Origin: Candidatus Zixiibacteriota bacterium
Lineage (GTDB): Bacteria; Zixibacteria; MSB-5A5; DSPP01
Reading direction: 5' to 3'
Assembly (NCBI GenBank): GCA_022614805.1
Contig: JAKEHY010000008.1
Coordinates: forward strand, 9,040 to 73,039
DNA: 64,000 nucleotides
A program made the translations under genes and the position numbers. Positions within the stretch are counted from its first letter, which is position 1. Every line of letters begins with the position of its first letter. Positions 26,945 to 29,706 of this stretch are shown one piece after another. A model generated the notes under the pieces. It ran no database searches. It was not told the origin of the DNA and was given only the letters and a program-made list of their open reading frames with translations.

Positions 26945-28258
26945 ATGGCGACCAACATTGTAATCCCGCAGATGGGAGAAAGCGTGGTCGAGGCGACCAT
27001 CGGCAAATGGCTGAAAAAAGAGGGCGACCCGGTCAAAAAAGATGAGCCGGTGGTGGAGATAATGACCGACAAGATTAACGCCGAAATCCCGGCCCACAAA
27101 TCGGGCGTTTTAGGCAAAATTTTAATCGGCGAAGGGACGGTAGTACCCATTGGGACGGAAATCGGCGTTTTGCTGGAATCCGCCAACGAACCGATTCCGG
27201 AAAAATACTTGAAAGGAAACGGCGGCGGCGTGTCCTCCGTCCATTCCAGTGCTTCCAGTTCAGTTTCCCCCTCGCCTTCTGCTCCGGCGGTAGTACCTGC
27301 GGTAGAGGAAGAGGATTTGAAAGGAGTTAAGACCTCCCCGGCGGTGCGGCGGCTGGCCCGCGAACACGGAATCGATTTGACCCAAATCAAAGGGACCGGC
27401 GGCGGGGGACGGATTACCAAAGAAGATGTGGAGGCCTTTGTCGCTTCCGGCAAGGCGGCGCCGGCGATGGCCCCCTCGGCTCCAACGAAGACTCCGGCAT
27501 CACCTTCAGGTCCAAAACAGCCGATTCCGGCTGCGCCTTCCACCCGTCCATCCGGCCCGCGCGAAGAAGTGGTTCCCTATGCCGGGGTGCGCAAGGTTAT
27601 CGGCGACCATATGGTTCGCTCCAAGCAGACGGCGATGCACTACACCACTTTCGATGAGTGCGATTTTAACTCGCTGGTGGAACTGCGCGCCCGTCTCAAG
27701 CCGCAAGTTCAGGAAAAATACGGCGTCAGTTTGACCTATTTGCCCTTTATCATCAAGGCCGCCTGCTTCGCCTTGAAGGAATTTCCGGTCGTCAACGCCT
27801 CCATTGCCGGGGACAAAATCGTTTACAAGAAATACTGCAACATCGGCGTGGCGGTGGGGCGGGATTCCGGCTTAATCGTGCCGGTCATCAAGGACGCCGA
27901 TGCGAAAAATGTTTTGCAATTGGCGGCGGCGATAGCCGAACTTTCCAAAAAGGCGCATTCCGACAAACTGACTTTGGATGATATTCAGGGGGGCACCTTT
28001 ACCGTCACCAACGCCGGGATGTTCGGGGCTTTGGCTTCTGCGCCGATTATCAACTATCCCGAAGTGGCGATTCTGGGGGTGCATATGATTCAAAAGCGGC
28101 CGGTCGTTCGTAATGACCAGATTGTCATACGGGATATGATGACTTTCTCGCTCTCCCTCGACCACCGGCTCGTGGACGGGCACGTGGGGGTTCAGTTTTT
28201 GCGCCGGCTCATCAATTACCTCGAAAACCCCTGGGAATGGATGATGACCAATGTTTAA
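26945..28258 (+). CDS. 2-oxo acid dehydrogenase E2 component (dihydrolipoyl acyltransferase)
   Basis: The 437-residue enzyme transfers acyl groups from E1 to CoA in a pyruvate, 2-oxoglutarate or branched-chain complex. Residues 1-78 are a lipoyl domain with the modified lysine at K43 in IMTDKINAE. After a Ser/Pro-rich linker, residues about 125-165 are the E1/E3-binding domain (KTSPAVRRLAREHGIDL). The catalytic domain runs from about 205 and ends with SLSLDHRLVDGHVG, the DHRxxDG active-site motif. The DKINAEIP lipoyl sequence is commonest in branched-chain or mixed-substrate E2, but substrate is not certain. No E1 or E3 gene is adjacent. lipB, which supplies the octanoyl group for lipoate, lies just downstream. 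Confidence 0.92.
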   Translation: MATNIVIPQMGESVVEATIGKWLKKEGDPVKKDEPVVEIMTDKINAEIPAHKSGVLGKILIGEGTVVPIGTEIGVLLESANEPIPEKYLKGNGGGVSSVHSSASSSVSPSPSAPAVVPAVEEEDLKGVKTSPAVRRLAREHGIDLTQIKGTGGGGRITKEDVEAFVASGKAAPAMAPSAPTKTPASPSGPKQPIPAAPSTRPSGPREEVVPYAGVRKVIGDHMVRSKQTAMHYTTFDECDFNSLVELRARLKPQVQEKYGVSLTYLPFIIKAACFALKEFPVVNASIAGDKIVYKKYCNIGVAVGRDSGLIVPVIKDADAKNVLQLAAAIAELSKKAHSDKLTLDDIQGGTFTVTNAGMFGALASAPIINYPEVAILGVHMIQKRPVVRNDQIVIRDMMTFSLSLDHRLVDGHVGVQFLRRLINYLENPWEWMMTNV

Positions 28259-28280
28259 GGGGTTTAATTTGGTTTGATTT

Positions 28281-28334
28281 TGTAGGAGTTGAATCCCTCG
28301 ACTACGCTCGGGACAAGTATATTCAACCCCTACA
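28281..28334. repeat. palindromic REP/MITE-like element between the E2 gene and lipB
   Basis: TGTAGGAGTTGAAT (28281-28294) and ATTCAACCCCTACA (28321-28334) are inverted repeats with one mismatch. They enclose TCCCTCGACTACGCTCGGGA, itself partly self-complementary. A transcript would fold a long hairpin here. The core resembles short repeats that are common in uncultured bacterial genomes. Confidence 0.6.
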
Positions 28335-28350
28335 GTTTTTACATGGTCTT

Positions 28351-29055
28351 ATGTCTGACGAATTGACAGTTGTTGATTGGGGGCATCTGGCCTACGGAGC
28401 CGCCCTTGCCCGACAAGAGGAAGCGGTGCGGCTCCGCTTGGAAGGAAAAATCGGTGACCGGTTGTTTTTGGTCGAACATCCGCCCGTAATCACCTTTGGC
28501 CGGGGGGGTAAAGCGGAGCATCTTTTGGCTTCCAAGGAAGAATTGGCCCGGCGGGGGGTTGAACTTTTTCATATCACCCGCGGGGGGGACGTGACCTTTC
28601 ACGGGCCGGGGCAACTGGTGGCGTATTTAATAGCTGATTTGACCGCGCGCGGGCGGGATTTGCACCGTTTTTTGCGCGAATTGGAAAACGCAGTCATCGA
28701 TTTTCTGGCCAAATATCATCTTAAAGGGGAGCGAATTGCCGGAAAGACGGGCGTTTGGGTGGAGGGTCGAAAGATTTGCGCAATGGGGTTGGCCGTGCGC
28801 AACTGGGTTACCTTTCACGGGCTGGCGTTAAACGTGGCAACCTCGCTGGACTATTTTTCCCTCATCCTCCCCTGCGGGCTGGCCGACCCGGTTACCAATA
28901 TGGAGTTGGAGTTGAAAGAGAAAGTGGACTTCGAAAAGGCAAAAGGGTGGTTGGGGGTGTCGATGGCTTCTGTTTTCGGTTATGAGCTGGTACGGGGTGC
29001 GAACGCCTCTTTCCCCCTATCAAACCCTGTTTCTAAAGAAAGTATATGGCGTTGA
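28351..29055 (+). CDS. lipB: lipoyl(octanoyl) transferase
   Basis: The 234-residue enzyme moves the octanoyl group from octanoyl-ACP to lipoyl domains, the first step of lipoate assembly. Conserved blocks include [31 protein letters not shown], Lys141 in [17 protein letters not shown], and the nucleophile Cys175 in ILPCGLADP. The ATG at 28351 gives the normal start; an in-frame ATG at 28237 would read through the palindromic repeat and the end of the E2 gene, so it is rejected. Its likely substrate in this neighbourhood is Lys43 of the E2 protein. The peroxiredoxin ATG overlaps its 3' end by 10 bases. Confidence 0.95.
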
Positions 29056-29510
29056 AAATTGGCGACCCTGCGCCGGATTTTTCGCTCCCGGCGACGGCCG
29101 GCGGGAAAATTTCGCTTTCCGATTATCGGGGAAAACGAAACGTTCTTCTGGCCTTCTACGCCCTCTCTTGGACCGGGGTTTGAACGGCGGAGATGTCCGC
29201 CTTCCGGGACGGGCTTTCCCGGTTTGACGGGCTGACTACCCAGGTCCTGGGTATTTCGGTTGACCCTTCTCCCAGCCAGCGAGCTTGGGCCCGGCATTTG
29301 GGGATTGCCAACTATCCGTTCCTTTCCGATTTCTGGCCGCACGGTGAGGTGGCGCAAAAGTACGGGCTTCTCCGTGCCGACGGGTTTTCGGAAAGGGCGA
29401 TTGTAATAATCGACAAGCTGGGCATTATCCGTTATTTCAAGGTTCACGAGTTGGAAACGGTTCCTTTGGTTGACGAGTTGATAAAAGAAGTGGAAAAGCT
29501 CCCGCGGTAG
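29046..29510 (+). CDS. AhpE-like peroxiredoxin, probable selenoprotein (Sec46 encoded by TGA)
   Basis: Read through one in-frame TGA (29181-29183), this is a complete 154-residue AhpE-type peroxiredoxin that would reduce hydroperoxides. It starts [20 protein letters not shown], typical of the thioredoxin-like fold. The active site reads [19 protein letters not shown], with TGA exactly where AhpE proteins have the peroxidatic Cys of TGxC. The rest is intact: [17 protein letters not shown] and [15 protein letters not shown], the latter with the conserved Arg. No other Cys is present, so it would be a one-Sec enzyme needing an external reductant. The proline usual in PxxxTxxC is Ala. A hairpin fitting a bacterial SECIS lies at 29204-29222. 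If UGA is not decoded as Sec, the product ends at 45 residues. The ATG overlaps lipB. Confidence 0.82.
29204..29222 (+). promoter_or_regulatory. candidate bacterial SECIS element
   Basis: CCGGGA (29204-29209) pairs with TCCCGG (29217-29222) and encloses the loop CGGGCTT. The apical loop begins 27 bases after the TGA and has G at its second position. Both fit the known bacterial SECIS rule (loop 16-37 bases downstream, G in the first two loop bases). It lies inside the coding sequence, as in other bacterial selenoprotein genes. Confidence 0.65.
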
Positions 29511-29628
29511 TCTGCTTTATTCTTGACTTCGTTTTGGTTATCTTTGAAATTGTTTGACTTTTTCTCCGTCCAGAAGGCTTTGAAAATGCCGGCTGTGAGG
29601 AAGTGGATGGAGGAACGGAATAAAATTT

Positions 29629-29702
29629 GGCGGAGTAGCTCAGTTGGTTAGAGCAGCGGAATCATAATCCGCGTGTCGGGGGTTCGAATCCCTCCTCCGC
29701 TA
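29629..29702 (+). tRNA. tRNA-Met (CAT), elongator type
   Basis: A full cloverleaf can be drawn. Acceptor GGCGGAG pairs with CTCCGCT (one G-T pair), the D arm is GCTC/GAGC, the anticodon stem GCGGA/TCCGC has loop ATCATAA with anticodon CAT, and the T arm is GGGGG-TTCGAAT-CCCTC. The sequence TAGCTCAGTTGGTTAGAGC matches elongator tRNA-Met rather than initiator tRNA, whose anticodon stem would have three G-C pairs. CCA is not encoded. Confidence 0.93.
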
Positions 29703-29706
29703 TTAA

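Follow-up and report, generated by a model that had tools for sequence, protein, structure and literature searches.

In the window, i.e., the entire 64-kb stretch of DNA that was analysed, genes for the lipoyl-bearing E2 component of a 2-oxoacid dehydrogenase, a LipB-like octanoyltransferase, a peroxiredoxin and a tRNA with a CAU anticodon follow one another in this order (Table 1). The peroxiredoxin gene runs from an ATG at 29046 to a TAG at 29508-29510, both of which are in frame with an internal TGA codon, and translation of this TGA as selenocysteine (Sec) yields a continuous product of 154 residues with one Sec (U46) and, as the sequence-only reading of this locus had stated, no Cys. A complete AhpC-TSA domain (PF00578; profile match of 119.7 bits) extends over residues 5-130, with the TGA located inside it; automatic annotation would miss such an enzyme or end it at the TGA. 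A scan of the 64-kb window for other TGA-interrupted genes returned none that was convincing.

Table 1. Features of the peroxiredoxin locus (window coordinates).
Feature	Position	Strand	Basis or remark
Lipoyl-bearing E2 of 2-oxoacid dehydrogenase	26945-28258	+	Upstream of lipB; possible electron source; order kept in same-genus relative
lipB-like octanoyltransferase gene	28237-29055	+	Ends with TGA 29053-29055; 10-nt overlap with peroxiredoxin start
Predicted selenocysteine AhpE-type peroxiredoxin gene (154 residues including Sec46)	29046-29510	+	ORF read with TGA as Sec; domain; sequence and fold matches
In-frame TGA, predicted Sec at peroxidatic position	29181-29183	+	Alignment with Cys of homologues
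Bacterial SECIS-type hairpin	29204-29222	+	Stem CCGGGA/UCCCGG, loop CGGGCUU; G at conserved loop position 29211
tRNA, CAU anticodon (called tRNA-Met)	29628-29703	+	3′ side of presence/absence difference with same-genus genome

The solved structures closest in sequence to the read-through protein are the AhpE entries of Mycobacterium tuberculosis (E about 1e-30, top match 1.5e-30), and in these alignments the TGA-encoded residue falls on the peroxidatic Cys of AhpE. An AlphaFold model of the read-through protein (pLDDT 89.8) likewise returned AhpE first in a fold search, with TM scores of 0.92-0.94 and rmsd values of 1.4-1.6. The assignment to the AhpE type and the exact placement of the TGA at the peroxidatic position, both proposed in the sequence-only reading, are thus borne out by sequence, and the former by fold as well. 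Residue 46 lies near the N-terminus of helix 44-62 in the model, and peroxiredoxins carry their peroxidatic residue near the start of a helix. The active-site set is represented by T43, U46 and R117; the Pro of the PxxxTxxC motif, which is kept in nearly all relatives, is replaced by Ala39 (ALSWTGVU; codon at 29160-29162), and this substitution would count against the gene being a Sec-containing AhpE.

Orthologues were sought among relatives of the same class, in sets of 98 and 132 genomes. At the peroxidatic codon, the 56 genes of the AhpE clade that were examined in the phylum possess either TGA (14 genes) or TGC/TGT (42 genes) and nothing else, while TGG, TAA or random codons at this position had been named in advance as evidence against a Sec codon. 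The TGA forms, which besides the window gene comprise those of 13 other genomes in two other families, belong to three family-level groups (f1, which includes the window, f18 and f19), and a tree of the AhpE clade requires at least five changes of state between Sec and Cys, with the position of the window gene itself being poorly supported. No close orthologue of the window gene was found among the relatives, the best being 54-55% identical, and the named genomes scanned with the protein contained distant relatives alone, all of the Cys form. Some relatives have extra Cys residues at +19, +23, +31 or +57; their presence varies, and some are shared by Sec and Cys forms, and a Sec-linked resolving Cys is therefore not claimed. 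A search for selA covered 98 relatives; the gene is present in all 11 TGA genomes among them, and it is absent from G074, which has the Cys form; since nearly the whole class has selA, this co-occurrence adds little.

Bacterial SECIS (bSECIS) elements, as defined in PMC13188914, have a loop of 3-9 nt, a stem of 4-16 bp, a G in the first two loop positions, a spacing of 16-37 nt and a minimum free energy of at most -7.5. The hairpin that the sequence-only reading had singled out for its spacing and loop G lies within every one of these limits, with a 6-bp stem, a 7-nt loop starting 26 nt after the UGA and having G at its second position, and an energy of -8.9 kcal/mol. Taken alone it is only mildly unusual, as 20 of 200 dinucleotide-shuffled sequences give an equally good fold and a synonymous-codon control gives p = 0.085. 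The comparative data are what render it convincing: in 13 of the 14 TGA forms the best G-loop hairpin has its loop start at nt 29-30 (with the T of UGA numbered 0, i.e., 26-27 nt after the UGA), whereas hairpin positions are scattered among the 26 Cys forms tested, with one weak case at nt 29-30. For L022, the exception at this exact position, an alternative hairpin with stem CCAG/CTGG and a loop starting at nt 27 can be drawn by eye. A G at position 30 is found in all 14 TGA forms compared to 26 of 42 Cys forms. Furthermore, energies at the hairpin position are much lower in TGA than in Cys forms (Mann-Whitney p = 3e-7), and 10 of 14 TGA forms surpass synonymous-codon randomisation at p ≤ 0.05, the sequences being related and the p-values of both comparisons therefore not independent. 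Within the ten sequences from f18, 89% of cells are paired and 10 cells are changed on both sides, with a covariation score above that of every one of 500 shuffles and of every slid version.

The genome containing the window (2.56 Mb, 93% complete) was searched for selA, selB, selC and selD, a search specified beforehand as one capable of refuting the Sec assignment, and all four predicted genes were found. A single tRNA-Sec (selC) exceeds the Rfam cut-off (65.4 bits; anticodon TCA, i.e., UCA) and is adjoined on the same contig by profile matches to selA (521 bits) and selB (357 bits); selD (351 bits) is located on another contig. The selD gene is itself a selenoprotein gene, whose catalytic motif GGUAGK includes a TGA codon (GGUAGKVSP; L017:1411-2631, + strand, contig C32), and since SelD needs read-through of this codon, at least one other gene of the genome requires UGA recoding.

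Comparison with the same-genus genome G001 revealed the same E2-lipB-tRNA order with the peroxiredoxin gene precisely absent (L091:1480-1771): homology to the window ends near the end of lipB and returns around the peroxiredoxin TAG, a difference that may represent horizontal gain or loss within the genus. In the alignment, the TAG of the window's peroxiredoxin gene coincides with the lipB stop codon of G001, which is also a TAG. Elsewhere in the class, ahpE of G067 (f19) follows a ferritin-like gene (rubrerythrin family) and precedes a second peroxiredoxin-like gene, then nadA, E2 and lipB; G070 and G092 have similar gene sets, ahpE of G041 (f9) lies upstream of nadA and lipB, and f18 genomes have ahpE together with the ferritin-like gene and nadA. 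These arrangements indicate that the linkage of ahpE with the E2-lipB pair extends beyond the window, and the ferritin-like genes, which several families of the class have next to ahpE, point to peroxide defence. An AhpE-like Sec gene beside lipB had initially been considered notable; this part of the reading is weaker, given that Sec-peroxiredoxins (TxxU, PF00578) are long known (PMC1794560, PMC13188914), and that the pairing with lipB is one version of a ferritin-like/ahpE/nadA/E2/lipB cluster found more widely in the class. As separate observations, G070 possesses beside its Sec-AhpE gene a second peroxiredoxin of PrxQ/BCP appearance with a TGA at the peroxidatic site (NNTPGUNRQ; L098:5231-5800, - strand), and the matching second peroxiredoxin-like gene of G067 (L099:4241-4603) seems to be without the active-site segment (DGSRDSAFRLAALEGE), which looks like the loss of an internal stretch.

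A dead gene or a sequencing error, in which a Cys codon was mutated or misread to TGA, could be suspected from the occurrence of a lone TGA in a mostly-Cys family, the lack of the gene in G001 and the loss of the motif Pro. This is nevertheless very improbable, as the same TGA recurs with a covarying hairpin in other families, the gene contains no further frameshift or stop, its coding G+C pattern is present both 5′ and 3′ of the TGA, and the genome has a full Sec machinery. An ORF at 29193-29510 does exist mechanically, and would permit the locus to be divided into a gene for a 45-aa peptide and another for a 105-aa product initiated at ATG 29193; there is hardly any likelihood of this, however, since the second product would be devoid of the catalytic residue and of the first strands of what is a single AhpC-TSA domain, which in Cys relatives is specified by one uninterrupted gene.

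The in-frame TGA, if considered by itself, would also be compatible with suppressor read-through or with a general reassignment of UGA (e.g., to Trp or Gly), such that the inserted residue is not Sec. UGA is still a stop in this genome, however, with TGA terminating 14 of the 43 large ORFs of the window; lipB is among these, its stop codon falling within the first codons of the peroxiredoxin gene, so that a stop-UGA and the presumed Sec-UGA are separated by ~130 nt on one strand. The exclusive alternation of the codon with Cys and the presence of a canonical tRNA-Sec with a UCA anticodon further argue against such a reassignment, to which we assign a negligible probability. The Sec machinery, codon alternation, SECIS-type hairpin and fold provide computed support for the remaining reading: judging from the sequence data, the TGA is almost certainly decoded as selenocysteine, and we estimate a probability of roughly 95% that this is a genuine selenoprotein gene, whose UGA would be recoded by SelB and Sec-tRNA(UCA), the product being an AhpE-subfamily peroxiredoxin of the 1-Sec type.

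Sec insertion itself, peroxidase activity and the nature of the electron donor are what we infer for this gene product. In peroxiredoxins the peroxidatic residue, together with Thr and Arg, attacks peroxide. In the proposed mechanism, the hairpin would guide SelB, with Sec-tRNA(UCA), in recoding UGA 29181; the selenolate of Sec46, with Thr43 and Arg117 holding it in place, would then attack peroxide to form a selenenic acid, which an external thiol or selenol donor would reduce. An external reductant would be needed because the protein has no Cys, and a 1-Sec peroxidase with such a reductant is the most likely function. Candidate donors are a Sec-glutaredoxin (UIFC motif) of the same genome and a dihydrolipoyl relay from the upstream E2. 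The former is a glutaredoxin-type selenoprotein with TGA at its first active-site Cys (PGUIFC; L089:1456-1689, - strand, contig C17); an AhpD-like CMD-family gene lies nearby (L089:27-416). Published accounts describe the reduction of M. tuberculosis AhpE by mycothiol and the glutaredoxin-like mycoredoxin-1 (PMC4360819), and of other thiol peroxidases by lipoyl E2, either via AhpD or directly (PMC8945050); by analogy with these precedents, the Sec-glutaredoxin, the AhpD-like gene and E2 may be regarded as possible donors. A broader scenario, which we put forward tentatively and consider rather unlikely, would combine repeated swapping of Sec and Cys in the AhpE subfamily across the phylum with a relay dedicated to recycling the Cys-free Sec enzyme here, based either on selenium (the Sec-glutaredoxin) or on lipoyl groups (the E2 of the same gene string), constituting a peroxidase circuit so far undescribed.

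It is well supported that the window gene represents a new member of the established Sec-peroxiredoxin family and not a new kind. Knowledge of TxxU Sec-peroxiredoxins goes back to 2001 (Sohling et al., cited in PMC13188914), and comparative surveys have counted them (PMC1794560, PMC2398784). AhpE is not named for Sec-peroxiredoxins in the corresponding passages of these three sources, and a full-text literature search for selenocysteine with AhpE returned no report of a Sec-AhpE as judged by title and abstract; since surveys lump subfamilies, earlier cases of the AhpE type are possible. The value of the present set lies in the occurrence of 14 Sec and 42 Cys forms in one phylum, with a SECIS-type hairpin tracking the codon, which amounts to a natural experiment on Sec/Cys interchange at the peroxidatic site and which includes a Cys-free, putative 1-Sec peroxiredoxin needing an external reductant.

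With thiol peroxidase Prx-SUH and the Prx-like thiol:disulfide selenoproteins (UxxC), the window protein shares the thioredoxin fold of a selenoprotein, while it scores 38 bits against the Prx-SUH model (NF045827; cut-off 298) and is without the UxxC motif of the latter. With Sec-peroxiredoxins of the TxxU type (PF00578), e.g., PrxU of Eubacterium acidaminophilum, it has in common a TGA at the peroxidatic Cys of an AhpC-TSA protein and a downstream hairpin; its score of 64 bits against the PrxU model (NF040737), for which the cut-off is 270, places it in a different subfamily. The 1-Cys peroxiredoxin AhpE of M. tuberculosis (Rv2238c) is of the same length, its active-site Thr and Arg align with Thr43 and Arg117, and neither protein has a resolving Cys. 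AhpE employs mycoredoxin/mycothiol as reductant (PMC4360819), whereas the donors of the window enzyme would be among the candidates proposed above, and the window protein differs further in having Ala for the Pro of PxxxTxxC and, by prediction, Sec where AhpE has its peroxidatic Cys.
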